Source of the DNA: a virus
Reading direction: 5' to 3' (one strand)
Length of the DNA stretch: 37,007 nucleotides
Virus record (IMG/VR): IMGVR_UViG_3300005264_000759
Location: 1 to 37,007 of that record
The translations under genes and the position numbers were made by a program. Below the pieces are notes generated by a model, which did not search any database, had not been told where the DNA came from, and saw only the letters and a program-made list of their open reading frames with translations. How positions within the stretch are numbered: position 1 is the first letter of the stretch; each line of letters starts with the position of its first letter. Below, piece after piece: positions 2,721 to 20,508 of the stretch.

Positions 2721-2908
2721 TGGATTTACTTATAACTGGACTCTTACTCTGGGTATATAATTTATTATTTCCAGAAACAAGACTGCCATCTAATAACACT
2801 GACATGGAAAACGGAGCAGCCTTCTTTTTCGGTTCAGAGGATTTTATGAATAATTCTGAGTCATCTGAAAAAGTTAATAATGATTATGACGATGGACCAA
2901 ATTGGTAA
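2720..2908 (+). CDS. Small hypothetical protein, hydrophobic N-terminus
   Basis: 62 residues, coupled by TAATG to the gene before. The N-terminus (MDLLITGLLLWVYNLLF) could be a membrane anchor; the rest is acidic and Asn/Ser-rich. It ends 10 bases before the helicase start, and its last codons contain that gene's AAAGGA ribosome site. No family recognised. Confidence 0.55.
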   Translation: MDLLITGLLLWVYNLLFPETRLPSNNTDMENGAAFFFGSEDFMNNSESSEKVNNDYDDGPNW

Positions 2909-2918
2909 AGGAATTAAA

Positions 2919-5129
2919 ATGTCAGTAATTCTTGAAATAGGCAAGGGTGTAAAATGTATTAATCTTCCTAAAGCAGCACAACAAAAAATTAAAAATGATT
3001 TGTGTTTTGATAATCCAGAGTATATAGCGGCAATGAAGCAAGGAAGGTTTATTTCTGCGGATATGCCTTCACATATTCACTTATATTATGCAGAAGGTAA
3101 CACTTTCTGGATTCCAAGAGGGTATATATATTATTTAAGAAAATGGTTACGAATTAATAATCATCTTGTTCAAATTAAAGATTATACATTACTTTTAAAA
3201 CCCTTGAATCTTAAATTTAATGGGAAATTACGATCTTACCAAAAAACAGCACAGAAAGATGTTTTATCATACCCGGTTGGAGTTCTCGAAGCGGCAACCG
3301 GGTGTTTAACGGGTGATACGTTAGTTCGAGTGAATAGAGCTAAAAAAGGATTTCAATGCACTCTAAAAAAATTGTATGAAAGACATAATGCGATTGTTAC
3401 AAAAGGAGTGAGTACATTCAATCACAAAATAAATGGACAAATTTCACGAAATTTTTACCATAAACAATGGGATTTATCTATTCCAACTTTTATACGATCT
3501 TATCATGAGGATGAGAATCAAATTCTACTTACAGAGATTCAGAATGTAATTTATTCTGGAATTAAAAAAGTATATGAATTTACATTAGAAGATGGTAAGC
3601 GATTAAAAGGAACTTTGAAACATAAAATTTTAACTACACAAGGATGGAAAAAATTAGGAGAAATTAAAAAAAATGATTTGGTAATGGTAGATTCACACAG
3701 ACCACAAAAAGGATTAAAAACAAATAATGTAAGAACTGATAAAAGTCGAGAAGGATTAATTTATCATCCAAACACACAAGGAAATAAATTAAATCGAAGA
3801 ACTTTACATATACTAATTTACGAAGCTTATTTGAATAAATTAAGTCTGGAAAAATTTATTCAAATATTAAAAACAGATAGTAAGAAAGCACAGAATCTTA
3901 AATTCGTTGATTCTGAAAAATACCATATACACCATAAAGATCAAGATTGGGAAAATAATGATCCAACAAATCTTGAACAATTAACAATTCTACAACATAA
4001 AAAAATACACATTAAACAAACCAAAAAGAATTTTAATCAAGGAAAGCCTCAATACGTAAGAATAATTAAGAAAAAGTATTTGGGAAAAAAAGAAACCTAT
4101 GATATTTGTTGTAAATCCCCACATAATAATTTTACAGCAAATGATATAGTTGTTCATAATTCTGGAAAAACTGTAACAGCAATTTCAATTATTGTGAAAC
4201 GAAAGCAACCAACATTAATAATAGTTCATAGTAAAGAATTACTATATCAATGGAGGGATGCAATAAAACAATTCACAGACGAAGATTGTGGATTAATCGG
4301 AGATGGAAAATTTCAAATCAAACCTATCACCGTGGGAATTATCAACACTGTCAAGAAGAACGTTCCAAAATTAGAAAAACAGTTTGGTCAAATAATAATG
4401 GATGAGTGTCATCGAATAGTTGCTTCATCCTGGTCTGAGACTATTCAAGAATTTCCTGCAAAACACTATTTAGGTTTAACTGCAACCCCATTTCGGAGGG
4501 ATGGATTGGGTCACGCCATTTTTGCCTGTATTGGCCCTAAACGACATAAAGTTGACAAAAGCATGCTATTTAAAACCAAAGCTGTATTAAAACCTGATGT
4601 TTATAAAGTGCTTTCAAATTTCAGATATGTTTTTACAAACGACTATTCAACAATGATTACAAATTTAACACAAGACAATGCAAGAAATAACTTGATTGTA
4701 AGCACTATTGTTGATGATTTAAAGCGTTACAATGAAAACATACTCATAGTATCAGACAGAAAAAATCATCTCTTAAATATGCAAGAAAAGCTTTACAATG
4801 ACTATAAGCTAAATAGTTTAGTTCTAACTGGAAGTGTAAGTAAAAAAGAAAGAACGGAAACGATTGAACAAGTCAAATCAGGAAAATGTAAAATTCTATT
4901 CGCCACTTTAAGTCTAATTGGCGAAGGATTTGACGCTCCAGATTTAACTACTCTGATTATAACAACTCCAGTTAAGTTCAGCGGCAGATTAATTCAAGCT
5001 TGTGGTCGAGTTTTACGACCGAAAAAAGGAAAAATTCCACGTATTTACGATATAAGAGATCCAGAAGTATCTGTACTTCGATACAGTGGTTTTGCCAGAG
5101 ACAGAATTTATATTTCAGAGTGGGGATAG
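2919..5129 (+). CDS. UvsW-like SF2 DNA helicase, interrupted by an intein
   Basis: 736 residues including a 286-residue intein; about 450 after splicing, near the size of T4 UvsW (503). I chose ATG 2919 (MSVILEIGKG) over the in-frame ATG at 2880 because AAAGGA at 2906-2912 is well spaced for 2919 and the upstream gene ends at 2908. Helicase motifs: Walker A split as AATG/SGKT by the intein, motif II DECH (IIMDECHRI), motif III TATPFRRDG, and motif VI QACGRVLRPKKGK. T4 UvsW unwinds branched recombination intermediates and R-loops, driving the switch to recombination-dependent replication. The protein cannot hydrolyse ATP until the intein is removed. Close relatives are RadD/SSL2-type helicases. 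Confidence 0.9.
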   Translation: MSVILEIGKGVKCINLPKAAQQKIKNDLCFDNPEYIAAMKQGRFISADMPSHIHLYYAEGNTFWIPRGYIYYLRKWLRINNHLVQIKDYTLLLKPLNLKFNGKLRSYQKTAQKDVLSYPVGVLEAATGCLTGDTLVRVNRAKKGFQCTLKKLYERHNAIVTKGVSTFNHKINGQISRNFYHKQWDLSIPTFIRSYHEDENQILLTEIQNVIYSGIKKVYEFTLEDGKRLKGTLKHKILTTQGWKKLGEIKKNDLVMVDSHRPQKGLKTNNVRTDKSREGLIYHPNTQGNKLNRRTLHILIYEAYLNKLSLEKFIQILKTDSKKAQNLKFVDSEKYHIHHKDQDWENNDPTNLEQLTILQHKKIHIKQTKKNFNQGKPQYVRIIKKKYLGKKETYDICCKSPHNNFTANDIVVHNSGKTVTAISIIVKRKQPTLIIVHSKELLYQWRDAIKQFTDEDCGLIGDGKFQIKPITVGIINTVKKNVPKLEKQFGQIIMDECHRIVASSWSETIQEFPAKHYLGLTATPFRRDGLGHAIFACIGPKRHKVDKSMLFKTKAVLKPDVYKVLSNFRYVFTNDYSTMITNLTQDNARNNLIVSTIVDDLKRYNENILIVSDRKNHLLNMQEKLYNDYKLNSLVLTGSVSKKERTETIEQVKSGKCKILFATLSLIGEGFDAPDLTTLIITTPVKFSGRLIQACGRVLRPKKGKIPRIYDIRDPEVSVLRYSGFARDRIYISEWG
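3303..4160 (+). mobile_element. HNH-containing intein in the helicase Walker A motif
   Basis: 286 residues, Cys1 (CLTGDTLVRV) to the terminal His-Asn (DIVVHN), with Ser as first residue of the C-extein. Block A and a block B-like GTLKHKILT are present; block F/G reads NNFTANDIVVHN. Between the splicing blocks lies an HNH nuclease signature (HIHHKDQDWENNDPTNLEQL), so this is a homing-competent intein, not a mini-intein. The insertion falls between Gly and Ser of the ATP-binding loop, a site where loss of the element by imprecise deletion would destroy the helicase. Confidence 0.93.
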
Positions 5130-5769: not shown

Positions 5770-5820
5770 ATGATAAAATTTAATCTAAAAGTTCCTACAA
5801 GTTCAATAAAATTATTATGA
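5770..5820 (+). CDS. 16-residue leader ORF coupled to the primase
   Basis: GGAG at 5760-5763 sits at good distance from this ATG, whereas the primase ATG at 5817 has no ribosome site of its own. The leader ends in TGA overlapping the primase start (ATGA, 5817-5820). The simplest reading is that ribosomes load on the leader and reinitiate at the primase. The peptide (MIKFNLKVPTSSIKLL) has no recognisable function. A similar arrangement occurs at 36582. Confidence 0.5.
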   Translation: MIKFNLKVPTSSIKLL

Positions 5821-6743
5821 GACACATTCAAAAAAACAAGAAGAGAAAAGGACGTATTCCGATAGATCAAATTGATATACGTGAGGTTCTTGATGATTTG
5901 AACATCTATTATTCAGAAAGCGGTAAAAATGTTTCTGATGGTTGGATTGGAGTTACATGTCCATGGTGCGATGATGGAAGTAATCATTTAGGAATACGAT
6001 TAGATGCTGGCACTTGCTCATGCTTTAAATGTGGACAAAGTGGAACAATAATAAAATACTTAGCAGATGAATTAGGTTCATTTAACAAAGCAATTCAGGT
6101 ACTTGGAGATGCTGTACCATTAGAACTGAAATCATTTGAAGAATCTGAAAGAGCAAGAGCAATCAAAGTTGAGTTACCTAAAGAAGCAAAGAGGCAAATA
6201 TCAAAGTATCACGCCGGATATTTAAACTCAAGAGGTTTTGATTATGAAGAACTTACGGATAAATACAATCTACATTTCTGTGGTCCTTATGGAAAATGGG
6301 CAAATAGAATTATAGTTCCAATAATGAAAAATTACAGACTGATTACTTTCACAAGTATTGACATATCGGATGAAGTTTTTATCAGATACAAACATCTACA
6401 GGATGAACTCTCAATAATTCCAATTAAGCAACATTTATTCGGACTTGAATTTACAAACAAGCATTCAATTATCGTAGTAGAAGGCATTTTCGATATGTTT
6501 AGAATCGGTGATGGGGCTGTTTGTACTTTTGGAACAAAGATAACCTCAGAACAGAAAAAAATATTATCAAAATATTCAACAGTTAAGATTGTATTTGATG
6601 GGGATGAAGCAGGACAAATTAATGGAGAAAAATTAGCAAATGATTTAGCGCCTTTTGCAGATGTTAAGTTATTCTTTCTTCCAGAAGGCTCTGACCCTGA
6701 TAAATTGTCTCAAGACGATATCAAGGAAATTAAAAATACGTAA
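5817..6743 (+). CDS. DnaG-type DNA primase
   Basis: 308 residues, shorter than cellular DnaG (about 580) but usual for phage primases lacking the DnaB-binding C-terminal domain. The N-terminal zinc ribbon is CPWC (48-51), H57, then CFKC (69-72), matching CHC2. The TOPRIM core follows: VVEGIFDMF (E222) and IVFDGDEAG (259-266) supply the metal-binding acidic residues. It makes RNA primers for lagging-strand synthesis and should work with the DnaB-family helicase at 9209. Translation appears to depend on the short leader ORF at 5770. Confidence 0.93.
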   Translation: MRHIQKNKKRKGRIPIDQIDIREVLDDLNIYYSESGKNVSDGWIGVTCPWCDDGSNHLGIRLDAGTCSCFKCGQSGTIIKYLADELGSFNKAIQVLGDAVPLELKSFEESERARAIKVELPKEAKRQISKYHAGYLNSRGFDYEELTDKYNLHFCGPYGKWANRIIVPIMKNYRLITFTSIDISDEVFIRYKHLQDELSIIPIKQHLFGLEFTNKHSIIVVEGIFDMFRIGDGAVCTFGTKITSEQKKILSKYSTVKIVFDGDEAGQINGEKLANDLAPFADVKLFFLPEGSDPDKLSQDDIKEIKNT

Positions 6744-6755
6744 AAAGGAGAAAAT

Positions 6756-7199
6756 ATGAATCAATTAAAAGAAATGGAAAAACACAAAAAACATTTAATA
6801 AGACTCAGACCACAAAAAATATCCTATTTAAGTGATGATAATGATTTCATGGTAAATGTATATTGTGAAACTTGCAGCAAAGAATTAATTACTATATCTG
6901 AAAAAGAGGATTTATTTAATAAACCTGTTATTTTTGCTTATCTAAAAAAACCAAAAATATTGAAAGGGAAACTCAATACTAAAATAGATAAAATAGATAT
7001 TGAAAGTAAACTTGAGGAAGCAAATAGTTCCATAACAAGATTAGCTTATGTATTACGAAATAATCAAATCGGAACTGTAGGACGACTTGCCAATTACACA
7101 TTAGCAGAATTCAAGTCTTTACGAATGGTTGGAAAAAAAGTGCTTTTTACAGCAAGAAAGTATTTAAAAACATATGATACAAATTTTCAAGGAGAGTAG
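6756..7199 (+). CDS. RNA polymerase alpha-CTD-like domain protein
   Basis: 147 residues behind AAAAAGGAG. The N-terminal half is basic with one CETC pair (37-40). The C-terminal 55 residues (about 88-142) follow the alpha-CTD/helix-hairpin-helix pattern: SSITRLAYVLRNNQIGTVGR, then YTLAEFKSLRMVGKKVL. By eye it aligns with bacterial RpoA, and residues matching E. coli R265, G296 and K298 are present (R95, G126, K128). In RpoA these contact the minor groove of UP elements. A phage protein with this fold could bind UP-like DNA or replace host alpha-CTD contacts; a generic HhH DNA-binding role is the alternative. It lies directly before a promoter. Confidence 0.65.
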   Translation: MNQLKEMEKHKKHLIRLRPQKISYLSDDNDFMVNVYCETCSKELITISEKEDLFNKPVIFAYLKKPKILKGKLNTKIDKIDIESKLEEANSSITRLAYVLRNNQIGTVGRLANYTLAEFKSLRMVGKKVLFTARKYLKTYDTNFQGE

Positions 7200-7212
7200 A
7201 AAAAATAAAATC

Positions 7213-7241
7213 TTGACAAACACTGATGCATGTATTAATAT
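7213..7241 (+). promoter_or_regulatory. Sigma70-like promoter for the initiator operon
   Basis: TTGACA at 7213-7218, 17-base spacer, then TAATAT at 7236-7241. The next ATG (7425) is about 175 bases from the expected start of transcription, so the message has a long leader with the structure described separately. Confidence 0.7.
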
Positions 7242-7270
7242 ATTTTTTATTAAACAAATGATTTAAAAAA

Positions 7271-7424
7271 GTAGATTGATTACCTACTGTTTGTTTAAAT
7301 GTGAAACATAAACAGAATGATTAAAAAGACTTCTTTAAAAAGTGGTCTTGATTGTTTCAGAAATTTTCTAATCAATTATTTCATAATCATTCAGGATCAG
7401 GACCATTTTTAAAGGAGTTTTTTT
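7271..7424 (+). promoter_or_regulatory. Structured leader with hairpin burying the ribosome site
   Basis: This is most of a 225-base gene-free stretch. 7330-7353 pairs with 7395-7417: 23 pairs (three G-U) and one bulged G at 7342. The 3' arm contains the entire AAAGGAG ribosome site (7411-7417) of the gene at 7425 and runs straight into T7 (7418-7424), so the structure could act as a ribosome-site lock, an intrinsic terminator, or both. Upstream hairpins: GTAG/CTAC (7271-7287) and CTGTTT/AAACAG (7287-7315). GAATGATTA (7315-7323) is complementary to TAATCATTC (7384-7392) in the loop of the big hairpin, which would make a pseudoknot or a competing fold. Confidence 0.75.
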
Positions 7425-7793
7425 ATGTCAAAATTTATTTTAATACAGAACAATAAACCTGAAGTTAGTACAAACAGCAAAACTTACAAATCAGCCAAAA
7501 AGAAATTTCTAAAATATACTTTAAAAAACCCATCTAAAATCCAGTTAAATTCAATTCTACGAGAATTGAATCACATAATAGAGCAGTCATTTGACTTAGA
7601 AGATAGAGGAATAAATGAATTTTTTAATGGAGATATCAACTTATATAATTATTGGAAAAAAAATAAACCTCACAACATTCAAAATATTAAAAATAAAAAA
7701 TACAAAAATCACATTATAGAGCAATTATTTAATATGTCATTGGGAGGTCGTTTACTTAATATTATTGATACTTCAAGAGGATTAATGATATGA
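7425..7793 (+). CDS. Hypothetical protein under leader control
   Basis: 122 residues, lysine/asparagine-rich, mainly helical, with no recognised domain. Its ribosome site AAAGGAG is separated from the ATG by seven Ts and lies in the stem of the leader hairpin. It overlaps the initiator gene by ATGA, so control of this gene should also set initiator synthesis. A replication-related role is inferred from position only. Confidence 0.7.
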   Translation: MSKFILIQNNKPEVSTNSKTYKSAKKKFLKYTLKNPSKIQLNSILRELNHIIEQSFDLEDRGINEFFNGDINLYNYWKKNKPHNIQNIKNKKYKNHIIEQLFNMSLGGRLLNIIDTSRGLMI

Positions 7794-9124
7794 AATACCA
7801 AAAAGTCTTAATAGAAGGGGAGCCATTTAATCCTTATAATTCATATGAGGGGATATTTATTCCTACTGGCCTTGTAGAGTGTACACAAATAAATGATTCA
7901 GTTAAAATTTTATTAGGAAGATTATTTCGATATGCAGGTAAAAATGGCAAAGCATACCCATACAGAGAAACACTATTAAAAGAATGTGGATTTAGAAATA
8001 TAAAAAAACTTGATAGAACAATAAGACAAGCTAAAGATTTAAACTTAATAAAAACAACACCACATATCACAAAGAAGAAAATAGATAATCCCCCAAGTGA
8101 GTATGTTTTTTTATATTCAAAAATGTATGATTCAGGGGAAATTAGCGATGACAAAAATGTCAATAGGGTTACTGACAAAAATGTCAATAGGGGTACTGAC
8201 AAAAATGTCAAACAGAAGAGAGTCAATAAGAAGAGAGTCAATAGAAATAATATTATAAATAATATTAACGAATCCGTAGATTCGTATAAACAAGGGAACA
8301 ATGTTGATCAAAAAAAGCCAATTTTGAAAAAAATAAAAAAAAATAAAAATAAACAAAAATTGCGAAAAAACAAATCTTTTGCCGCAAAATTAAAAAAACG
8401 TAAATTAAAACAACAAAAAATAAAACAAGCAAAAAACATAACAACAAAACCAAAATACAAACACACGATAAAAGATTTAAGAAACTATAACGAACTTATT
8501 GGTCACGGCATTACTGATCACAGAAGTGATAAACCCAAGAATAACTCAATTGACAAACTACACGCTTTATTTTCTTCACAATGTAAAGATCCTTATCATA
8601 CGATTGATACCCCAGAGATTTACGTTAATTTTAAATGGGATATGGATTTATTGATTGAAGTCTTTGAATATCATCTCAAACATACTGTAAAATTTAATAT
8701 GAAACCTGTTAAATCTATAGGGAATTTTATTTTTAGTGAAGGGTATAACGGATTTAAGTCTTGGTCTCCTTTAGTTTATTGGCATCAAAAAATGACAAAG
8801 ACAGCAGAAAACGAATTAACAGAAGAAGGAAAAAAATTCTTATTATCTCTCAAGAGAGCTAAAGTACATGGAATAAGGGATATTGATTCATCAATCATCA
8901 ACAAAGTAGCAAAAGAAACCTATTATGTAGCAAATAATCATGTATTCATGGATGATAAAACAATTACAATGTCTTATCCTCGTGGTATCATAGATACATT
9001 GTCAAGTTATATCAAAGAGCAAACAAACCGAGATAATTTTAAATTAGTTTATATTACGAAAAATGGGTTTATAGATGAATTTTTAGATATCGCCAAGAAA
9101 CGAAACATAATTAAACTTAAATAG
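7790..9124 (+). CDS. Lambda O-like replication initiator (winged-helix)
   Basis: 444 residues. The first 105 residues look like the winged helix-turn-helix of phage replisome organisers (VECTQINDSVKILLGRLFRY, then KAYPYRETLLKECGF and RTIRQAKDLNLIKTT). A low-complexity basic linker (about 115-235) contains the repeated peptide DKNVNR, encoded by DNA iterons. A C-terminal domain (about 250-330) contains FKWDMDLLIEVFEYHL and a NFIFSEGYNGFKSW stretch. The next gene is a DnaB-family helicase, the same order and logic as lambda O-P: the initiator binds iterons within its own gene and brings in helicase. Initiator identity is inferred from fold, repeats and neighbour. Confidence 0.7.
   Translation: MKYQKVLIEGEPFNPYNSYEGIFIPTGLVECTQINDSVKILLGRLFRYAGKNGKAYPYRETLLKECGFRNIKKLDRTIRQAKDLNLIKTTPHITKKKIDNPPSEYVFLYSKMYDSGEISDDKNVNRVTDKNVNRGTDKNVKQKRVNKKRVNRNNIINNINESVDSYKQGNNVDQKKPILKKIKKNKNKQKLRKNKSFAAKLKKRKLKQQKIKQAKNITTKPKYKHTIKDLRNYNELIGHGITDHRSDKPKNNSIDKLHALFSSQCKDPYHTIDTPEIYVNFKWDMDLLIEVFEYHLKHTVKFNMKPVKSIGNFIFSEGYNGFKSWSPLVYWHQKMTKTAENELTEEGKKFLLSLKRAKVHGIRDIDSSIINKVAKETYYVANNHVFMDDKTITMSYPRGIIDTLSSYIKEQTNRDNFKLVYITKNGFIDEFLDIAKKRNIIKLK
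8150..8285 (+). repeat. Candidate replication origin: iterons and dyad inside the initiator gene
   Basis: Three copies begin with GACAAAAATGTCAA at 8150, 8174 and 8198; the first two full units are 24 bases with one mismatch. Each holds the dyad GACA-AAAA-TGTC. Two 15-base units starting AAGAGAGTCAATA follow (8216-8230 and 8231-8245), keeping the GTCAATA core, so five GTCAA sites lie in about 90 bases. After them come an almost pure A/T tract (8243-8267), the perfect stem ACGAATC-CGTA-GATTCGT (8268-8285), and an A-rich stretch to about 8460. This matches the lambda origin plan of iterons followed by an unwinding region. Confidence 0.7.
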
Positions 9125-9208: not shown

Positions 9209-10732
9209 ATGATTCAGAGTAGAAACGTATCTGTAGTGGAAGAAAAACGAATTGTAATTGGATTAATTGTTTCTTCACAATTTATTCAACAAATTTTACC
9301 TATTTTTCAACTCGACTATTTCGTGAATTCATATTTAAAAACTATTGCTTCTTGGTGTATTGTGTTTTATGAAGAACATGAAAAAGCTCCCTATCGCCAC
9401 ATACAAGACATTCATGAAGCTGAATCACTTAATTTAAAAGACTCCGACAGTGAATTAATAGAAGACTTGCTAAAACTATTAACAGAGCAGTATGATCCTG
9501 AATCAGTCAATGTAGATTATTTGAAAGATTGTGCTGTAAACTATTTCAGAAAACGAGAACTTGAAATAGTGGTCAACAATGTTTCAATTTTAAAAGAGAA
9601 AGGAGAGTATGATGAAGCTGAAGCTCAGATTACTCGGTTCTCTAAAGTCACAACTACACTTGACTCCGGAGCAATAATTAATATAGGTGATTTAGCAGAA
9701 GTTACAGAGATATACAGACAACGAGAGGAAGAAGATAAAAAGTTTTTTCATATGCCTGGCGATTTAGGAAGATATCTTGGAAATTTTAAACGTGGGGATG
9801 TGGTGGGATATTACGCACCTGCCAAACGAGGGAAAAGTTGGACTCTTGTTGATCATTTCAAACAAGGAGTACTTCAACGCAAAAAGACTTTATTCTGGTC
9901 TATTGAAATGACAAAAACAGAAATACTCCCACGAATTATGAAATCATTTAAACCGATGGTAGATGAAGAAGGGGAATACACATATCCAGTATTTGATTGC
10001 ATTCATAATCAAACTGGAGATTGTGGAGATAGGCTTTCAAATGTAATCATTCTTGAAGATGATATAAAGATAAATGACCCATCTCACACTCCATGTACAA
10101 CTTGTATGAGATATAATCACCCACATGAATTCGCAATGACTGTACATCTTGCAACAAAGTTCCGAGATTCAGATGATATCTTTACGATACAAAAAATGAT
10201 GGAATCAAAAAGATTAAAAAATCCTTTGATGTCAAAGTTAAATAAATTTGGAAGATTGTCAGTTCATCCAAAATACACTTTAACATATGATAAAATGATG
10301 CGAGACATTGAAATTTTAAATAACAAAGATGGATTCATTCCCGATATTATGATTCTTGATTATATAGATATTCTTGGAATAGATACAGGATATGATAATT
10401 ACAAAGCAGTCGATGAAGCATGGAAATTACTTGCTAAGATAGCAGGGGAATTTAATGTGTTGATGATCACAGCTACACAAGCAAATAAAGAAGGACATTC
10501 AGCAGGAGTATTAAACGCAACTCATCAGGGTGGATATTATGGAAAGAATCAACACGTTAATATTATGGTGGGTTTAAACCAAACTTCAGAAGAAAAAGAA
10601 GTAGGAGTAATTAAGTATGGTATTACTGAAGCTCGTTCTCAGTTTTTTATTCCTGGAAAAACATGTACTGTTTTACAGGATATAAAATCAGGACAAACAT
10701 ACTTGGACTCTTACTACGATTGGAATAGTTAA
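9209..10732 (+). CDS. DnaB-family replicative helicase
   Basis: 507 residues. A helical N-terminal domain (about 1-150) is followed by a RecA-like motor: Walker A APAKRGKS (203-210), SIEMTK (motif 1a-like, 231-236), Walker B MILDYIDIL, and MITATQAN. Between them sits an insertion with four cysteines (C264, C272, C296, C299) that could bind zinc; this is not part of cellular DnaB. It would unwind DNA 5' to 3' at the fork, loaded by the upstream initiator and working with the primase. No dedicated loader (DnaC or lambda P type) was recognised. Confidence 0.9.
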   Translation: MIQSRNVSVVEEKRIVIGLIVSSQFIQQILPIFQLDYFVNSYLKTIASWCIVFYEEHEKAPYRHIQDIHEAESLNLKDSDSELIEDLLKLLTEQYDPESVNVDYLKDCAVNYFRKRELEIVVNNVSILKEKGEYDEAEAQITRFSKVTTTLDSGAIINIGDLAEVTEIYRQREEEDKKFFHMPGDLGRYLGNFKRGDVVGYYAPAKRGKSWTLVDHFKQGVLQRKKTLFWSIEMTKTEILPRIMKSFKPMVDEEGEYTYPVFDCIHNQTGDCGDRLSNVIILEDDIKINDPSHTPCTTCMRYNHPHEFAMTVHLATKFRDSDDIFTIQKMMESKRLKNPLMSKLNKFGRLSVHPKYTLTYDKMMRDIEILNNKDGFIPDIMILDYIDILGIDTGYDNYKAVDEAWKLLAKIAGEFNVLMITATQANKEGHSAGVLNATHQGGYYGKNQHVNIMVGLNQTSEEKEVGVIKYGITEARSQFFIPGKTCTVLQDIKSGQTYLDSYYDWNS

Positions 10733-10753: not shown

Positions 10754-11167
10754 ATGTATCGAATTAGAAAAAAATTTAGGTTTGAAGCGGCACATGTATT
10801 AGATTCAAGTTATTCAAAAGATTGTCAAAACTTACACGGACACTCTTACATTGTGGAATTATTTTTTGAGTCAATAATGTTAAACGATGATGCTATGTTA
10901 ATTGATTTTGGACATATTAAAGACATAGTAAAACCCATCATTGATAAATGGGATCACAGTATTATTGTTTCTGGAATTGGTGAATTAGGATTGCCTGTAT
11001 CAAAACAGAAAGAATTAAATGTAGTGGAATTAGGATACAATCCTACAGCCGAAGTAATGGCATTCGTGTTGTGGGGGTTAATACGAAAACATCTCCCTAT
11101 ACTATCAAAAGTTAGAGTACATGAAACTGAAACGGGTTATGCTGAGTATGAAGGAGAAGATAATTAA
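10754..11167 (+). CDS. queD: QueD, 6-carboxy-5,6,7,8-tetrahydropterin synthase
   Basis: 137 residues, full length for the family, behind AAGGAG. Zinc ligands H14 (FEAAH), H28 and H30 (LHGHSY) and the catalytic C24 (KDCQNLHGH) are in place, followed by DFGHIK, WDHSII, NPTAEVMA and VHETETGYAEY. It converts dihydroneopterin triphosphate, the product of GTP cyclohydrolase I, into carboxytetrahydropterin, the second step of preQ0 synthesis. The C-x3-H-x-H pattern fits QueD rather than the biopterin enzyme. Next to queE, with folE and queC downstream. Confidence 0.93.
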   Translation: MYRIRKKFRFEAAHVLDSSYSKDCQNLHGHSYIVELFFESIMLNDDAMLIDFGHIKDIVKPIIDKWDHSIIVSGIGELGLPVSKQKELNVVELGYNPTAEVMAFVLWGLIRKHLPILSKVRVHETETGYAEYEGEDN

Positions 11168-11803
11168 ATGAATGTCGCAGAAATTTTTTCCTCAATTCAT
11201 GGGGAAGTAAATGGACACCATCAAGGCAGACTTGTTACATTTATTCGTTTATCTGGATGTAATTTAAAATGCTCGTATTGTGATACTAAAGAAACTCAAA
11301 ATTCTGATTATGGAACTCCGATGTCAATTCACGATATTCTTAGAAAAGTTCAAGAATTTGGGAATGACTGTATTTGTTTAACTGGAGGAGAGCCATTATA
11401 TCATGATGATGTAATAAAAGAACTTTTAAAAATATTATGGTTATCAGGATATGCTATCTCTGTTGAAACAAATGGAACAACCGACATTACTCCATTTTTC
11501 AGATATGTAGAATCTTTCGTAATAGATTTTAAATTAGACTTTGTTGATAAAATGATCCATAATAATTTTATCAAATTAAGGAAGACTGATATTATTAAAT
11601 TTGTAATTTCAGATGAAGAACAATTAGCCCAAGCATTATATTGGAAAGCAGAATTTGAACATATGGAAACTGATGCGTTATTTGCTTTTTCTCCTGTACA
11701 TTCTATTATGTCCGCAGAAGAACTTACCAATACATTAATTAAGCAACAAGAAAACAACTGCATAATATCCATGCAAATTCATAAGATATTAAATCTAAAA
11801 TAA
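11168..11803 (+). CDS. queE: QueE, 7-carboxy-7-deazaguanine synthase (radical SAM)
   Basis: 211 residues. The N-terminus carries the substrate segment IFSSIHGEVNGHHQGR and the radical-SAM cluster motif CNLKCSYC (C31, C35, C38), followed by LTGGEP. QueE contracts the pterin ring of carboxytetrahydropterin to 7-carboxy-7-deazaguanine using SAM and a 4Fe-4S cluster. Its ATG follows the queD stop directly. It is the last gene before the 11.83 kb promoter, so queD/queE and queC/folE/dpdA may lie on two transcripts. Confidence 0.93.
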   Translation: MNVAEIFSSIHGEVNGHHQGRLVTFIRLSGCNLKCSYCDTKETQNSDYGTPMSIHDILRKVQEFGNDCICLTGGEPLYHDDVIKELLKILWLSGYAISVETNGTTDITPFFRYVESFVIDFKLDFVDKMIHNNFIKLRKTDIIKFVISDEEQLAQALYWKAEFEHMETDALFAFSPVHSIMSAEELTNTLIKQQENNCIISMQIHKILNLK

Positions 11804-11804
11804 A

Positions 11805-11857
11805 TATTAATTTATTATTAATTTATCATTGACATTTTAATATTTATGTTTTATATT
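11805..11857 (+). promoter_or_regulatory. Promoter with duplicated UP-like element
   Basis: TTGACA at 11829-11834, 17 bases, TATATT at 11852-11857. Upstream are two tandem copies of the 11-mer TATTAATTTAT (11805-11826). The 43 bases from 11805 match 20141-20183 with only three differences. The expected transcript starts near 11864 and opens with the hairpin TGAAGT-GAATT-ACTTCA (11867-11883), which may protect the 5' end. First gene: 11919. Confidence 0.8.
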
Positions 11858-11918
11858 ATCTGCAAGTGAAGTGAATTACTTCATAATAATTATTACTTAA
11901 AAAGAAGGAGAACAACAA

Positions 11919-12488
11919 ATGTCTAAAACGTACCCAGTACCAGAATTTAAAGAAGCGGTAAAGTCTCTTAATGGAGTTCTAAAAAAGCTTAAAAAAGCGA
12001 CAATCAAAACTGACAAAGTTAAAAGAAATGAAGTGTACGAAGCTTTTGTCAAAACAATCCATCAGTTTATTCAAGATAACAAAGTTGAAAAACTTTCCGA
12101 CAATGTAATAGCTTTCTACAATGAGCATGTTGCGGAAGATGAAGGTGATGATAAGAAAGAAAAGAAAGATGCGGGAAAAACAACTAACAAAAAAGCTGAT
12201 AAGAAAACTACCTCTGACAAGAAAGAAACCAAGAAATCCGCTCCTCCTAAAAAAGTAGGTGTATTGGATGCAATTCATACTGCAATTGTTGAAAAAGGTC
12301 CAATATCTAAAAAAGATATTTTGGCTGAGTTAGTTAAAAAGTTTCCAGAACGAGAAGAAAAAGCAATGAAAAATACAATCAACTGTCAAATTGGTGGAAA
12401 GAAAACTCCTCGCAGATTGGAAAAATCAAGAAAGACTTCTTATGTTGTAGATGAGAATAATGCCTTTTCTATAAAAAAGAGCAAATAA
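11919..12488 (+). CDS. Putative DNA-binding protein, two domains and basic linker
   Basis: 189 residues behind AGAAGGAG. An N-terminal helical domain (about 1-75) is joined by a Lys-rich low-complexity linker (80-115) to a C-terminal segment (about 115-185) that looks like a winged helix (VLDAIHTAIVEKGPISKKDI, then LAELVKKFPEREEKAMKNTI). It is the first gene behind a strong promoter and sits between queE and queC but is not itself a queuosine gene. It may regulate this operon or package DNA; function is inferred from composition only. Confidence 0.6.
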   Translation: MSKTYPVPEFKEAVKSLNGVLKKLKKATIKTDKVKRNEVYEAFVKTIHQFIQDNKVEKLSDNVIAFYNEHVAEDEGDDKKEKKDAGKTTNKKADKKTTSDKKETKKSAPPKKVGVLDAIHTAIVEKGPISKKDILAELVKKFPEREEKAMKNTINCQIGGKKTPRRLEKSRKTSYVVDENNAFSIKKSK

Positions 12489-12492
12489 AACA

Positions 12493-13170
12493 ATGACTGG
12501 TGCTGTATGTTTATTGAGCGGTGGGCAAGATTCTACCACTGCTCTATACTGGGCTAAAAATCAATTTAAGAATGTCTTTGCTTTGATTATTGATTATGGA
12601 CAAAGACACTCAATTGAAATAGAATCTGCTAAAAAAATTGCAACCATGTCTGCTGTACCTTATAAAATATTGTATCTTAAAGATTATTTCCAAACATTAA
12701 CAACTTCTGCTTTGATTGGTGAAGGTATCATATCTGGTGCTCATCCCATAAACCCCAATCTTCTCGCTTCTTTTGTACCGGGAAGAAATTTAATTTTTAT
12801 AACTTCTGCATCAATTCTGGCACAACAAATGGGTTATAGAAATGTCGTTACAGGGGTATGTCAAACAGATTATTCGGGATATCCCGATTGTCGAAACAAT
12901 ACAATAGATTCTTTACAAGTTTCATTAAATTTAGGTATGGATTCAAATATTAAAATTCACACCCCTTTAATGTGGCTAAACAAAAGAGAAACAGTTGAAA
13001 TGTCTATGCGATGGCCCAGTTGTTGGAAAGCTTTAGAATACTCCCATTCTTGTTATGAGGGATTAAACCCCCCTTGTGGTAAGTGTCCCTCTTGTATATT
13101 GAGAGAGAAAGGATTTAGAGAGGCTGGGATGACTGATCCAATTTATAATAGGAGTATAAAAGATGAATAA
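12493..13170 (+). CDS. queC: QueC, 7-cyano-7-deazaguanine (preQ0) synthase
   Basis: 225 residues, normal length. The PP-loop SGGQDST (9-15) binds ATP. DYGQRH and VPGRN are family motifs, and the C-terminal zinc site is C187, C195, C198, C201 (CYEG, then PPCGKCPSC). QueC converts 7-carboxy-7-deazaguanine to preQ0 with ammonia and ATP. It completes a preQ0 pathway with folE, queD and queE. No QueF or archaeosine amidotransferase is visible, so preQ0 is the expected end product in this window. Confidence 0.94.
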   Translation: MTGAVCLLSGGQDSTTALYWAKNQFKNVFALIIDYGQRHSIEIESAKKIATMSAVPYKILYLKDYFQTLTTSALIGEGIISGAHPINPNLLASFVPGRNLIFITSASILAQQMGYRNVVTGVCQTDYSGYPDCRNNTIDSLQVSLNLGMDSNIKIHTPLMWLNKRETVEMSMRWPSCWKALEYSHSCYEGLNPPCGKCPSCILREKGFREAGMTDPIYNRSIKDE

Positions 13171-13654
13171 AATAAGTGCAAATAAATACTTTTGGCCTGT
13201 TATGTATATGTTATCTATTCTATTAGGTAATTTATTTGTGATTCAATTTGGAATTGTAAAAGTTTTTGGTTTAACTTTTCCGGCGGGTGTTGTTTTTATT
13301 GGGTTAACTTTCTCATTTAGAGATTTTGTGCAAAGAAAATGGGGAGATTGGGCATGTTGGATTTGGATGGGGTTAGCTATAATAATTACCTTTTTCCTAA
13401 ATCAAAAGGTTGCCTTAGCTTCTGTAGCGGCTTTCGGTATCTCGGAATTTATTGATTGGTTTATTTTTAAATTTCTGAAAGTATCATTAAAGAAAAGGAT
13501 TATGTTTTCCAATTTAATCTCTTGTCCTCTTGATTCCGCTATATTTGTTACTATTACATTTGGTTGGTTCTGGCCTGCTATTTGGGGTCAAGCATTAATT
13601 AAATATATTTCAGGACTTTTGGTTTTACCTTTCATAAAAAATGAGGAAATTTAA
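13163..13654 (+). CDS. yhhQ: YhhQ/VUT-family (DUF165) queuosine precursor transporter
   Basis: 163 residues with about five hydrophobic helices. Family landmarks are FRDFVQRKWG after the second helix, ALASVAAFGISEFIDWFIF, and SNLISCPLDSAIFVTITFGW. Cellular YhhQ imports preQ0/preQ1. Here it would sit in the host membrane and supply precursor to the phage pathway, or recover it. It overlaps queC by 8 bases and abuts folE, which ties it to this pathway. Shorter than E. coli YhhQ (about 220). Confidence 0.85.
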   Translation: MNKISANKYFWPVMYMLSILLGNLFVIQFGIVKVFGLTFPAGVVFIGLTFSFRDFVQRKWGDWACWIWMGLAIIITFFLNQKVALASVAAFGISEFIDWFIFKFLKVSLKKRIMFSNLISCPLDSAIFVTITFGWFWPAIWGQALIKYISGLLVLPFIKNEEI

Positions 13655-14218
13655 ATGAACGATAAAATTCAAAATAATATAATTGAAATATTAAATTATA
13701 TTGGGGAAGATATAAATCGAGAAGGTTTATTAGAAACTCCCAAACGAGTAGTTAATTCTTGGAAAGAATTATATTCAGGCTATGAAAAAGATCCAAAAAA
13801 ACTTTTAAAAACATTTAACTCTGACGGGTATGATCAAATTGTTTTGTTGCGGGATATTGAATTTTATTCTACTTGTGAACATCACATGTTACCTTTTTTT
13901 GGGAAAGCTCACATAGCTTATATTCCCAATAAACGAGTTATTGGCATATCTAAATTAGCCAGATTGTTGGATATTTATGCCCGTAGACTTCAAATACAAG
14001 AACGACTTGGACAACAAGTTATTGCAGTTTTAATGAGTGAGTTAAAAGCTACTGGTGCGGCATGTATTATTGAAGCTACTCACTTCTGTATGCGTAGCAG
14101 GGGTATTCAGAAACAAAATTCAATAATGACTACATCTTCTTTAGCAGGAGTATTTTTAGAAGATAGTACAAAAGGATTAGCCGCCAGAAATGAATTAATG
14201 AGATTAATTCATGCTTGA
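13655..14218 (+). CDS. folE: FolE, GTP cyclohydrolase I
   Basis: 187 residues. The zinc ligands are C74 and H77 (STCEHH) and C145 (THFCM), and other conserved segments are LLETPKRV, GISKLARL and TGAACIIEATHFCM. It converts GTP to dihydroneopterin triphosphate, the substrate of QueD, so the phage can drive deazaguanine synthesis without the host enzyme. It follows the transporter directly and overlaps the DpdA-like gene by 8 bases. Confidence 0.95.
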   Translation: MNDKIQNNIIEILNYIGEDINREGLLETPKRVVNSWKELYSGYEKDPKKLLKTFNSDGYDQIVLLRDIEFYSTCEHHMLPFFGKAHIAYIPNKRVIGISKLARLLDIYARRLQIQERLGQQVIAVLMSELKATGAACIIEATHFCMRSRGIQKQNSIMTTSSLAGVFLEDSTKGLAARNELMRLIHA

Positions 14219-15008
14219 TATTTTCCTTGACAGCGGAGCTTTTACTTTTTTTAATAAAGGGCAAAAAGTCTCGCTAAAAGAATACCATGGATTCGTAAAG
14301 GAACATCTCTCTTTATTGGGAGGTGTTTCTTCTATGGATGTAATTGATTCTGGTGAAAAATCTATCAAAAAATTTCACAGATTAAGAAAAACGGGAATTG
14401 ATTACATCCCTTGTTATCATTATGGAGAACCTCCTTCAGTATTACAAGAGTATATAAAATATTCAGAAATAGTATCTATAGGAGGGACTGTTCCAATTTC
14501 TTATGCAAAACTTTTACCCTGGCTTGATAATCTCTTTACAAAATATATCTGCGATAAAGATAGAAATCCCATTGTAAAAACTCACGGATTTGGTCTAACA
14601 GATCAAAGATTGATGTTCAGATATCCATGGTATAGTGTAGATTCTTCAACATGGATTCGTGTATCAAGAATGGGTATGCTACTTTTGCCAAGACGAGTAA
14701 GAGATAAAGTACGATGGGATAAACAACCTATGCGAATTCAAGTATCGGATAAAGGACCGATGAAAAATGGAGCAGATTCACACATTGATATAATGCCAAA
14801 AATGGAAAAAGAAAAAGTTTTAACAATCATAAAAGATAAAGGATTTAAATTAGGCAAAACAGTAAACGAAAAAGTTGTAGAAGTGGGGTTATGTAATTCA
14901 TTTGCTTTGCGAGATAAATTTAATATGCTGTATATGCTTGAATTAGAATCCAATTTGCCTGAATATCCTTATAAATTAAATATCAAACATCAAAAAGTTT
15001 TCATATGA
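14211..15008 (+). CDS. dpdA: DpdA-like DNA guanine transglycosylase
   Basis: 265 residues. TGT-superfamily marks are LDSGAFTFF (D7), SMDVID (D43), VSIGGTVP, THGFGLTD and YSVDSSTW (D144). In tRNA-guanine transglycosylases the matching segments are DSGGFQ, the GG substrate loop and the Asp nucleophile region. Phage DpdA proteins swap guanine in DNA for preQ0 or a derivative. Last gene of the preQ0 cluster, overlapping folE. Relatives I remember start with an extra module (MK-Y/F-LAG and an aromatic-rich strand) before the DSGAF motif; here the protein begins at the motif and a similar module follows as the next ORF. Assignment is from motifs and context. Confidence 0.82.
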   Translation: MLDIFLDSGAFTFFNKGQKVSLKEYHGFVKEHLSLLGGVSSMDVIDSGEKSIKKFHRLRKTGIDYIPCYHYGEPPSVLQEYIKYSEIVSIGGTVPISYAKLLPWLDNLFTKYICDKDRNPIVKTHGFGLTDQRLMFRYPWYSVDSSTWIRVSRMGMLLLPRRVRDKVRWDKQPMRIQVSDKGPMKNGADSHIDIMPKMEKEKVLTIIKDKGFKLGKTVNEKVVEVGLCNSFALRDKFNMLYMLELESNLPEYPYKLNIKHQKVFI

Positions 15009-16359: not shown

Positions 16360-19300
16360 ATGGGATTTTTCACCAGCACTGAGATAGCTAAAAAAGCAAA
16401 TAAGAAAGTTGACATAAACAACCTTGAGCCTGATTGTTTAAAATGCACTTTATATAAACAATGCAAAACTCCCAAGATGAAAGTATCTGGGGAAGGTCGA
16501 AAAAAGATTCTTGTAATATCTGATTCACCCAATTATGAGGAAGATGATTACGGAATTCAATTAGTTGGTGACGAAGGAAAGCTTTTGAAAAAAAACTTTA
16601 AAAAAATAAAACTTTCTTTAAATAAAGATTGCTGGAAAATCAATGCAGTTAATTGCAGAACTCCGAATGCAAAAAAGCCATCTCATAAAGAAATTAAATG
16701 TTGTTTTCCTTATGTGCAAAAAGCAATACTTGAATTAAGACCTAAATTAATATTGCTTCTCGGTGACATTGCAATCACTTCTGTATTTGGAGAGGAATTC
16801 TCAAATAGGAAAATAGATAGATGGCGAGCTTATGAAATTCCTGATGAAAAATTCAAATGTTTTGTCATGTCATTGTATCATCCTTCATATTTATTAAAAA
16901 GAGATAAAGATGCGAACTTAAAATCTGTATTCAAACGAGATGTTAAACGCATTTCTCACTGTTTAAAGCGTACATATGAGAAGCAAACAGATTACGAAAG
17001 CTATGTTACTATTCTAAAAGATTTTAACGCAGTTAAAAGCGTGTTAAAACGAATCATAAAAAGAAAATCTAAAATTGCGTTTGATTATGAAACAACAGGA
17101 TTAAAACCGTATCGTGATGGGCATAAAATTTCAACTATAGGAATTGCTGTTTCAGCTAAAAAAGCATTTGCTTTTCCTTTTAACTACAAATCATATTGGA
17201 CTAAAGAAGAATTTTCACAGATATATAAATTATGGAAAACAATTATACTGGATAAAAAAATCAAAAAGATAATCCATAATTCTAAATTTGAAGATGCCTG
17301 GTCAGCGATTCGGGCTGGCGGAAGAATCAAAAATATCCATTGGGATACTATGATGTCTCAACATATTTTAGATAACCGTAGAGCTTCAATCGGATTAAAA
17401 TTTCAAACATTTGTTCGATATGGAGTAAGACCTTATGATAATGTAATTAAACCTTTTTTAAAATCAAAAAATGGAGAATTTAATACGATAGAAAAAGCTC
17501 CATTTAAAGAACTTCTCATTTACAACGGACTTGATTGTATTTTTTGTTGGATGCTTTATAAAGATCAAACCAGTTATTTACCGAGAATGAAAAACATGTT
17601 CAAAGCATATAAGTTTTTCATGCGTGGATTAAGTACAATGGGAACTATTCAGTTCGGTGGCATCAATGTAGATATGAAGTATTATAAAGAAACCAATAAA
17701 AAATTAAAAAAAGATATACGTAATCTGCAACACAACTTAATCACAGGCAGAGAAGGAACAAAATTCAAAGAGAAGTTTGGCAGAGATATCAAGATCACAT
17801 CAAACCAAGATTTAGGTAAATTGTTCTATGAAATTCTTGGGAAAAACCCAATTTATACAGATGCAGGAAATTACAAAACGGACAAACCCACTCTTGAGAA
17901 ACTAAATCTACCTTTTATAGATAAACTTTTAAAAATGAAACGCCTTGAAAAAGCAAAGGGAACTTATCTTGCTCAGTTTGCTAGAGAAGCATACAAAGGA
18001 GTAATGCATCCATTTTTTGATTTACATATTCCTGTAAGTTACCGTGGATCATCGTCAATGCCAAATTTTCAAAATGTACCAAAACGTGATGCTGAAATTG
18101 CGAAGTTGATTAGAAAGGGAATGGTGCCATCAACAAACTCAGCTATAATTGAAGCTGACTTTTCAGGGGCAGAGGTAATAACGAGCGTGTGTTATCATAA
18201 GGATAAAAATTTCTATAATTATTTGGTCGATCCTTCTACTGATATGCATCGGGATAATGCAACTGACTTGTTACTTCTGCCACATGAAACTCTTGAAAGA
18301 ACTGATTACACCAAAGAACAAAAGAAAAAAGTAAAGATGATTCGATTCTTTGCAAAAAATATGTGGACCTTTGCTCAATTCTACGGGGATTGGTTTGGCT
18401 CATGTGGAAAAAGTTTTTGGGAAAATGTAGTTGATGCTGGATTAGAACTGCCAAGTGGAATGACTTGTAAACAATGGTTAGAAGATAAAGGAATTTATGA
18501 ATTAGGTGAAATTGATAGGGATGGTCCTACGCCCGGCTCATTTCTTGAGCATTGTAAAAATGTTGAAGATAAAATGTGGAATGAACGATTTTCTGGATAC
18601 ACTCAATGGAAATCTGACATAGTTGATTTCTATCAAGAATATGGATACATTGAAACATACTTTGGATTTAGATTTCAAGGTTACATGGATAAAAAACAAT
18701 GCACAAATTTCCCAATTCAAGGGTGTTTACAAGGACACTCAAAAATTTTAACATCAAAAGGGTGGAAAAGAATAGACTCGTTGATAAATAAAAAAGTTAA
18801 AGTGTGGACTGGTTTTGAATGGAAACCTGCAATAGGAGTTGATCGGGGAAAAGCTAAATTAGCAACAGTTCACTTAGAATCTGGGTTAAAACTTGATTGT
18901 GATATTAGACATGAATTTAAAAATGAAAACAATGAATGGGTAAAATTTAAAGATTTAAAAGTGGGTCATTATGTTGCTTTGCCTAAAATTATGAATCGAA
19001 TTACTAATTCCAAAATCAAAATGGATTGGTTTTTTATATTGGGATTTGCAATTGGGGATGGTTGGTTTGGATCAAAAATGATAACTGAAAACAACACAAG
19101 ATATGTTTTACAGATATCTGGAGGAAAGACAAAGTATAACGAATTGGATGAAATGTGTTCTTTTCTTCAATCGTATCATGCAAAAGGATTTACAAAAGCA
19201 AGAGTTAGGCAAACAAAGAAGAATATGCGAGTGTTGCATGTAGAAGGACGTAAAATGGCAGAAAAACTAATATCTTTTGGATATGAATGCAATAAAACTG

Positions 19301-20133
19301 CACATACAAAACACATACCAATATCAATATGGGACGGAACAAAACAGCAGCAGCAGCAATTTATGAATGGATTATGGTTATCTGATGGATCAAGAAAAAG
19401 AAAATCATTACATATGTGTAATTTTAATCTTTTACAGGAAGTGCAGGTATTATTATATGGATTGGGCTATGATTCATTTATACGAAAAACAAAAAATGGG
19501 TGGAAATTAACACCTCAAAATGTGTTGCATAAAACATTCACCAGTAGACTTTTTCCAAGAAAAACATTTGACATGCTAAGAAAAGAAAAAACTATTGCTT
19601 ATGATAAAAATGATAATTCAACGATAACGGATAGAAGAAATATTGCCTCAAACAAAGATGTATCCCAAACAGTTGCAGAACGCATTTTAAATAAATTAAA
19701 TCCTAATTGTGAATTGTATAGATACGATAGAGTAACCAAAATTGATTTAGTTGAAAAAGAAGAAAATACATACACTATGACAGTAAATGACAAACTCCAT
19801 CAATTTGTAGCTGATGGAATTATTTGTAAAAACACATCGTTTCATTTGTTGGTGTACACATTAAGTCAAGTAGAAAAATTTATCAAAAAGCACAAATTAA
19901 GAAGTAAGATGGTGGGCCAGATACATGATTCTATAATTTTAGATGCACGTAAAGATGAAATTTCCTTTTTAGTCAATGGAATAAATACAATCGTACAAGG
20001 ACTACAAGATAAATTTGATTGGTTAATGGTGCCGATGGAAATTGAAGTAGAATTATCTAAATTGAAAGAAGATGGCGGTAGTTTTGCTGAAATGAATGAG
20101 TATTCAATTGCAGAAATTAATAAAATGTATTAA
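16360..20133 (+). CDS. Family A DNA polymerase with UDG-like N-terminus and intein
   Basis: 1257 residues; 887 after removal of the 370-residue intein. Residues about 20-205 resemble a family 4/5 uracil-DNA glycosylase: cysteines of CLKCTLYKQC and NCRTPN suited to a 4Fe-4S cluster, LVGDEGKLL, and LYHPSYLL. Then a 3'-5' exonuclease: FDYETTGL, HNSKFEDAW and YNGLDC. Polymerase motifs: A, ADFSGAEVITS; B, RFFAKNMWTFAQFYGD; C, QIHDSII. SPO1-type phages also fuse a UDG fold to family A polymerase. Whether the UDG-like domain is catalytic is unclear; its motif 1 (SDSPN in place of GEAPG) is altered. Main replicative polymerase. Confidence 0.93.
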   Translation: MGFFTSTEIAKKANKKVDINNLEPDCLKCTLYKQCKTPKMKVSGEGRKKILVISDSPNYEEDDYGIQLVGDEGKLLKKNFKKIKLSLNKDCWKINAVNCRTPNAKKPSHKEIKCCFPYVQKAILELRPKLILLLGDIAITSVFGEEFSNRKIDRWRAYEIPDEKFKCFVMSLYHPSYLLKRDKDANLKSVFKRDVKRISHCLKRTYEKQTDYESYVTILKDFNAVKSVLKRIIKRKSKIAFDYETTGLKPYRDGHKISTIGIAVSAKKAFAFPFNYKSYWTKEEFSQIYKLWKTIILDKKIKKIIHNSKFEDAWSAIRAGGRIKNIHWDTMMSQHILDNRRASIGLKFQTFVRYGVRPYDNVIKPFLKSKNGEFNTIEKAPFKELLIYNGLDCIFCWMLYKDQTSYLPRMKNMFKAYKFFMRGLSTMGTIQFGGINVDMKYYKETNKKLKKDIRNLQHNLITGREGTKFKEKFGRDIKITSNQDLGKLFYEILGKNPIYTDAGNYKTDKPTLEKLNLPFIDKLLKMKRLEKAKGTYLAQFAREAYKGVMHPFFDLHIPVSYRGSSSMPNFQNVPKRDAEIAKLIRKGMVPSTNSAIIEADFSGAEVITSVCYHKDKNFYNYLVDPSTDMHRDNATDLLLLPHETLERTDYTKEQKKKVKMIRFFAKNMWTFAQFYGDWFGSCGKSFWENVVDAGLELPSGMTCKQWLEDKGIYELGEIDRDGPTPGSFLEHCKNVEDKMWNERFSGYTQWKSDIVDFYQEYGYIETYFGFRFQGYMDKKQCTNFPIQGCLQGHSKILTSKGWKRIDSLINKKVKVWTGFEWKPAIGVDRGKAKLATVHLESGLKLDCDIRHEFKNENNEWVKFKDLKVGHYVALPKIMNRITNSKIKMDWFFILGFAIGDGWFGSKMITENNTRYVLQISGGKTKYNELDEMCSFLQSYHAKGFTKARVRQTKKNMRVLHVEGRKMAEKLISFGYECNKTAHTKHIPISIWDGTKQQQQQFMNGLWLSDGSRKRKSLHMCNFNLLQEVQVLLYGLGYDSFIRKTKNGWKLTPQNVLHKTFTSRLFPRKTFDMLRKEKTIAYDKNDNSTITDRRNIASNKDVSQTVAERILNKLNPNCELYRYDRVTKIDLVEKEENTYTMTVNDKLHQFVADGIICKNTSFHLLVYTLSQVEKFIKKHKLRSKMVGQIHDSIILDARKDEISFLVNGINTIVQGLQDKFDWLMVPMEIEVELSKLKEDGGSFAEMNEYSIAEINKMY
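18724..19833 (+). mobile_element. LAGLIDADG intein in the polymerase
   Basis: 370 residues, Cys1 (CLQGHSKILTSKGWKRID) to the final Asn, with Thr at +1. Insertion is in NFPIQG/T between motifs B and C. Block B-like GLKLDCDIRHEF is present. The nuclease core has two LAGLIDADG-type motifs, LGFAIGDGWF and MNGLWLSDGSR. The C-terminal block reads HQFVADGIICKN, so the penultimate residue is Lys instead of the common His. Inteins lacking that His are known and can splice, often more slowly. Confidence 0.93.
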
Positions 20134-20241: not shown

Positions 20242-20508
20242 ATGACGGCATTATTCAGTAAAACAATATCAATAACCATTCCAGTTCAATTAGAAGAGGA
20301 TCTTAAAAAAGAAGCCGGTAAGCTCGGAATTTCTCGTTCAAGATTGATTGGTAATCTTCTACTTGATTGGCAAAAAGATAAAAAAGTCACAATAAATGAT
20401 TGTCTCAATCAAAGAGAAGGATGGTGTATAGAATTTGGAATTGTATGTCAAGCACCCCAATCGGAAGCAGAAACTTGCAGTGATTATTTAAAAGGAAATA
20501 ATTCATGA
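20242..20508 (+). CDS. Ribbon-helix-helix regulator with Cys-containing tail
   Basis: 88 residues. AGGGGG at 20226-20231 and the promoter position support ATG 20242 over an upstream in-frame start. The strand KTISITIPVQ, helix LEEDLKKEAGKLGI and helix SRSRLIGNLLLDWQ match CopG/Arc-like RHH. A tail with four cysteines (DCLNQREGWC, then a later C and TCSDY) follows and may bind metal. First gene behind the strongest promoter, overlapping the clamp loader by ATGA; likely autoregulation is inferred. Confidence 0.7.
   Translation: MTALFSKTISITIPVQLEEDLKKEAGKLGISRSRLIGNLLLDWQKDKKVTINDCLNQREGWCIEFGIVCQAPQSEAETCSDYLKGNNS

Follow-up and report, generated by a model that had tools for sequence, protein, structure and literature searches.

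In the origin of bacteriophage lambda, iterons, about 39 bp of AT-rich DNA and an inverted repeat lie in the middle of the initiator gene O (PMC6022878, PMC7466680), and the lambda sequence itself reads as four iterons, the AT-rich region and then an imperfect inverted repeat. A similar arrangement is found in the RepA_N family, where the Rep boxes of pSK41 are located centrally in rep, the N domain of Rep binds them and the origin encodes the linker of the protein (PMC5703833). For Staphylococcus phage 80alpha, the sequence record annotates a putative origin inside the initiator gene (gp20). In oriV of RSF1010, iterons lie beside the short stem-loops of ssiA and ssiB, which become accessible on unwinding and serve as recognition sites of RSF1010's own primase (PMC4234260).

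The window analysed here is the whole stretch of 37,007 nucleotides of the IMG/VR virus record IMGVR_UViG_3300005264_000759 (positions 1-37,007), a linear fragment on which all major genes lie on one strand, so that GC skew is uninformative with regard to the origin. Based on sequence comparison, we propose with a probability of roughly 0.8 that the region 8149-8285, in the linker of the replication initiator gene, is the replication origin of this phage. The features concerned are the following:

5817-6743, plus strand: small DnaG-type primase (zinc and TOPRIM; phrog_47, E 6.8e-38; TIGR01391 dnaG, E 9e-24)
7790-9124, plus strand: replication initiator gene, 444 aa (phrog_270 match), directly 5' of the helicase gene here and in relatives
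7790-8155, plus strand: N-terminal winged-helix domain of the initiator, predicted iteron binder (AlphaFold pLDDT 82; Foldseek)
8149-8172, plus strand: iteron 1, dyad TGACA-AAAA-TGTCA at 8149-8162
8173-8196, plus strand: iteron 2, same dyad at 8173-8186
8197-8220, plus strand: iteron 3, same dyad at 8197-8210, 3' part diverged
8214-8243, plus strand: two exact 15-mers, AGAAGAGAGTCAATA, predicted DNA unwinding element (Tandem Repeats Finder; AT and A enrichment in relatives)
8248-8267, plus strand: hairpin 1, TAATATTA-TAAA-TAATATTA, perfect stem (minus-strand loop TTTA)
8268-8285, plus strand: hairpin 2, ACGAATC-CGTA-GATTCGT, 7-bp stem, abutting hairpin 1
8308-8460, plus strand: A-rich tract encoding a Lys/Asn-rich linker (read from the sequence)
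8447-9121, plus strand: C-terminal domain of the initiator, conserved in relatives having other N domains
9209-10732, plus strand: DnaB-type replicative helicase (phrog_19, E 1.4e-33; 54-72% identity in five relatives)

The primase gene is located upstream of the initiator gene, and the helicase gene comes next after it. An earlier note on this DNA had claimed that the linker part of a winged-helix initiator gene, beside a DnaB-family helicase, holds an iteron-type origin, which the sequence supports, and that the replisome is otherwise T4/SPO1-like. The replisome is not T4-like: the phage encodes a PolA-family polymerase, a bacterial-type beta clamp and its own small DnaG-type primase. Large inserts were observed in three replication genes, namely an HNH-type insert in the UvsW-like helicase (2880-5129), an intein in the PolA-family polymerase (16360-20133), the N terminus of which is a family-4 uracil-DNA-glycosylase domain, and, as suggested by a split profile match, a third insert in the clamp loader (20505-22466); the DnaB of the related locus L006 also contains a large intein-like insert. 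Downstream of the helicase gene, a run of 7-deazaguanine synthesis and insertion genes (10754-15008) codes for QueD-like, QueE and QueC proteins, a Vut_1 transporter, FolE and a queuine-tRNA-ribosyltransferase-like protein (phrog_887, E 9e-47; DpdA-like by inference), from which the phage DNA may contain a modified guanine. Between primase and initiator genes, 6756-7199 encodes a small protein whose end weakly resembles the RNA polymerase alpha C-terminal domain (NCBIfam, E 1e-3), and the 226-bp gap 5' of the initiator operon (7200-7424), which carries inverted repeats and shows only sub-threshold Rfam miRNA matches, is probably a promoter or regulatory region.

The initiator consists of a winged-helix N domain, a low-complexity Lys/Asn-rich linker and a C domain. 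Residues 22-214 match the profile of the phrog_270 replication initiation protein (E 1.8e-5), and a weak match to HTH_36 (E 4e-4) is under the curated cut-off of Pfam, whose search of the initiator yielded neither Phage_rep_O nor RepA_N. Foldseek ranked the Rep-DNA complex 5kbj first for the N-domain model, although weakly (E 3e-3, TM 0.5), and the model also resembles the N domain of DnaD (2v79). A likeness to RepA_N initiators may be seen in the central place of the repeats within the gene and in this fold match, and differences in the missing Pfam match and in the C domain, whose model, although helical as a DnaD-like domain would be, found no match in a fold search of the PDB. The C domain is the predicted contact for helicase or primase. 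As judged from the sequence, the combination of iterons with AT-rich DNA follows the scheme of lambda O and of the RepA_N plasmids, while the domain of neither family was detected.

Relatives of the initiator were found neither by a sequence search of the PDB nor by tblastn of phage records nor by a single-sequence scan of viral contigs, and the helicase was therefore taken as anchor. The first round of the helicase search gave the five viral loci listed above, and in total 115 non-redundant viral loci were anchored on the downstream DnaB-type helicase; a scan of a genome collection returned a single MAG contig. In the closest relatives the gene 5' of the helicase is constant in its C domain and variable in its N domain, the N domain of the window being shared by L004 and L006. 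Despite unrelated letters and differing N domains, the order of iterons, A-rich stretch and tandem hairpins recurs in the relatives. A few relatives with an initiator but no repeats, which had been named as evidence against an origin, were encountered: no repeats were detected in the initiator-like genes of L021 and L031, and L003 shows only weak ones. When 43 loci were aligned at hairpin 1, direct repeats located at about -120 to -70 exceeded each of 20 shuffles in 31 of them, with periods mostly of 22-25 bp or about twice that.

Nearly every closer relative carries two adjacent perfect hairpins 3' of the iterons. The stem of hairpin 1 has 7-9 bp in these phages and its coding-strand loop is mostly TAAA, while hairpin 2, in the first set of relatives, has a stem of 5-8 bp and a loop of 3-5 nt that is usually C-G closed; the stem sequences are wholly different between phages. 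In the window, the A/T-only stretch noted earlier is present (8245-8268) but itself contains hairpin 1, and the 7-bp perfect stem noted separately is half of one conserved tandem-hairpin element. The 448 kb of sequence upstream of the helicase contain 32 hairpins with a TAAA loop and a stem of at least 7 bp, whereas the 587 kb downstream contain none, and hairpins of the reverse orientation (TTTA loop) are absent upstream, i.e., one orientation is used throughout. Of 106 loci, 30 have a tandem hairpin within the 3 kb preceding the helicase gene, as compared to 0.6 in Markov shuffles and 4 of 92 in the downstream control; the hairpin thresholds were fixed after the first loci had been seen, and, judged by contig names, about 19 of these 30 loci and 20 of the 32 TAAA hairpins come from later scans. 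Approximately 70% of the helicase-anchored loci have no perfect tandem hairpin upstream. Taken alone, the tandem hairpin of the window is only modestly surprising, as synonymous shuffles produced a tandem hairpin in 21 and a TAAA hairpin in 68 of 2000 cases. The tandem element might be restricted to the present lineage: no tandem hairpins were found in the lambda region and TP901-1, and none near the helicase in four distant cultured phages, the one match, in L056, being far from it. No description was found in the open-access literature searched, within which the conserved tandem hairpin appears to be undescribed. In L012, a tandem hairpin (6430-6475) is located downstream of the helicase gene, and an antirepressor-like gene instead of an initiator gene lies upstream of dnaB.

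The hairpins might work as RNA in the initiator mRNA, controlling its translation or stability, with the iterons alone being origin elements. The hairpin element does lie within a transcribed coding region, and the single dominant loop orientation would be expected of an RNA signal too. Moreover, computed DNA folding energies are alike for both strands, i.e., a greater thermodynamic stability of the minus strand was not seen, so that strand and molecule are assigned by inference. However, the coding-strand loops are mostly UAAA, UUC, UGAA and UNNC, unlike the classic stable RNA loops, no Rfam family matched the element at gathering score, and the position of the hairpins is fixed relative to the iterons and the AT-rich DNA. 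By contrast, the minus-strand loops are of the GNA/GNNA type in 18 of 52 hairpins as compared to 11 of 140 control hairpins (p 2e-5), and of the KN(N)A type in 36 of 52 as compared to 19 of 140; GNA loops are known to give DNA minihairpins extra stability (Yoshizawa 1997, cited in PMC6479982). This loop bias points to the minus strand as DNA, and we consider a role as RNA rather unlikely. Furthermore, different phages read the loop in different frames, hence the protein does not dictate it, and since the stems lack a conserved sequence while the minus-strand loops show a bias towards TTTA, GNA or GNNA, recognition would be by shape and loop.

With regard to the iterons, the five GTCAA copies lie where the earlier note had placed them (starts at 8159, 8183, 8207, 8222 and 8237; spacings of 24, 24, 15 and 15), but these fall into two classes, three 24-bp dyads and two 15-mers, and Tandem Repeats Finder reported a 24-bp array (8149-8211, 97% matches) and a separate 15-bp array (8214-8243, 100%). 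All three copies of the dyad TGACANNNNTGTCA in the 37-kb window, where 0.05 are expected, lie in the iteron array. The best self-repeat score of the initiator gene is 58.1 as compared to maxima of 40.6 in 30 synonymous-codon shuffles and 18.0 in 30 codon shuffles; the repeats are real and beyond chance. The 24-bp units of the window (ACTGACAAAAATGTCAATAGGGGT), L004 (ACTACTAAAAATAACAGTAGGGGT) and L006 (GTTGTTAAAAATAACAGTAGGGGT) are homologous while their letters differ: the dyad of L006 is TGTTA-AAAA-TAACA, both arms having changed together, and L004 has an imperfect dyad at the matching place. Within the unit, third codon positions are identical in 8 of 8 cases between L004 and L006 and in 7 of 8 between each of them and the window, as compared to 43-48% gene-wide, which bears out the third-position conservation proposed earlier as a check. 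The unit also includes AGG, a rare codon with 14 occurrences among the 180 Arg codons of the genes counted. The window's units of 24 and 15 bp keep the reading frame, as had been stated, but the relatives' periods of 23 bp (L017, L035), 22 and 23 bp (L033) and 25 bp (L022) break it, which indicates that the repeats are selected as DNA. In the L017 repeat, GGTGACA-CGGA-TGTCACC, the core dyad of the window recurs, and more distant winged-helix genes show a like design, L053 having three dyads of the CCGTCA-GAAG-TGACGG type followed by A-rich DNA. In the iteron zone of the 43 loci, dyads with 4-bp spacers number 25 as compared to 4.7 expected, and those with 6-bp spacers are also raised (21 as compared to 5.0).

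Dyads bound by a winged-helix protein are typical of regulators and iteron Reps commonly autoregulate, so the repeats could be operators with which the initiator would repress its own operon or set its timing, the true origin lying elsewhere. Against this speak the location of the sites about 360 nt into the coding region and not at a promoter, the recurrence of the AT-rich stretch and tandem hairpins along with the repeats, and the absence of a second iteron cluster of the same sequence elsewhere in the window, and we regard an operator function with an origin elsewhere as distinctly improbable. That the repeats are a side effect of the expansion of a disordered linker, at the protein level or by slippage, and have no function as DNA is hardly credible: the window's units do stay in frame, the linkers are of low complexity and in L005 a 120-bp in-frame duplication (6839-7084) doubles the tandem-hairpin element within the initiator gene, but the out-of-frame periods contradict it as a general explanation, and the dyad symmetry with 4-bp spacers, the third-position conservation and the reading of the hairpins in different frames argue against it as well.

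The AT-rich DNA beside the iterons spans 8214-8268 in the window. In the 43 loci, the last 40 bp before hairpin 1 are enriched in AT (+0.10) and in A (+0.13), and repeats with a period of 12-15 bp are frequent in the relatives at -40 to 0 from hairpin 1. The 15-mers of the window sit where the relatives have this A-rich stretch of about 40 bp, the presumed melting region, and were therefore assigned to the unwinding element, to which they more likely belong than to the iterons. Counting all five GTCAA copies as iterons was dropped, as the 15-mer positions of L006 keep GTC while its dyads carry AAC, and the 12-15 bp repeats in the AT-rich zone of other phages also counter it. The long A-rich tract (8308-8460), earlier taken as part of the origin, is real; however, the matching region of the relatives shows on average no AT enrichment, for which reason it was rejected as unwinding element and probably lies outside the conserved origin.

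Following this, we propose that initiator dimers bind the three 24-bp iterons via the winged-helix domain and that their assembly would melt the adjoining A-rich 15-mer region. The exposed or extruded DNA, probably of the minus (template) strand, would fold into the two neighbouring hairpins which, together with the initiator C domain, would position the phage's own DnaB-type helicase and DnaG-type primase; the single-stranded hairpins would thus serve helicase/primase loading.

The lambda O/ori logic ascribed to this locus by the earlier note holds for the order of iterons, about 40 bp of flanking AT-rich DNA and an inverted repeat, for the location of the iterons (8149-8220) within the initiator gene (7790-9124), and for their form of hyphenated dyads joined by A residues, known also from the O genes of Stx phages. 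It does not extend to the proteins: the initiator has no Phage_rep_O match and its N-domain model resembles RepA_N Rep and DnaD, and instead of a P-type loader recruiting the host DnaB, the next gene encodes the phage's own helicase, which is accompanied by its own primase and no recognisable loader. Moreover, lambda has one imperfect inverted repeat, the phage two perfect tandem hairpins. In 80alpha, repeats and AT-rich DNA are similarly followed by a hairpin (GTCGGG-CAA-CCCGAC) near the end of the putative origin, but this hairpin is single, a DnaC-like loader gene comes next and no phage DnaB gene is adjacent. The nearest precedent for iterons combined with primase-recognised stem-loops is RSF1010, by analogy with which primase recognition is a candidate function in the phage; its iteron binder RepC and primase RepB' are other types of proteins than those of the phage, and its origin is not described as lying inside the initiator gene.

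A broader proposal, for and against which we see the odds as even, is that widespread uncultured phages with their own helicase and primase use a dedicated tandem DNA-hairpin signal, coded silently in the initiator gene, where it follows iterons and a melting region, and read by a replication protein through shape and loop; such an origin would combine lambda-like iterons with single-strand-initiation hairpins. The findings suggest that initiators swap their N domains along with the matching sites and retain the C domain and the hairpins, and they raise the question whether the hairpin pair loads the helicase or starts the primer. To our knowledge, the origins of most large lytic phages with a replisome of their own have yet to be mapped, and the order of iterons, A-rich stretch and tandem hairpins would provide a sequence-independent signature by which both origin and initiator may be predicted in uncultured phages.
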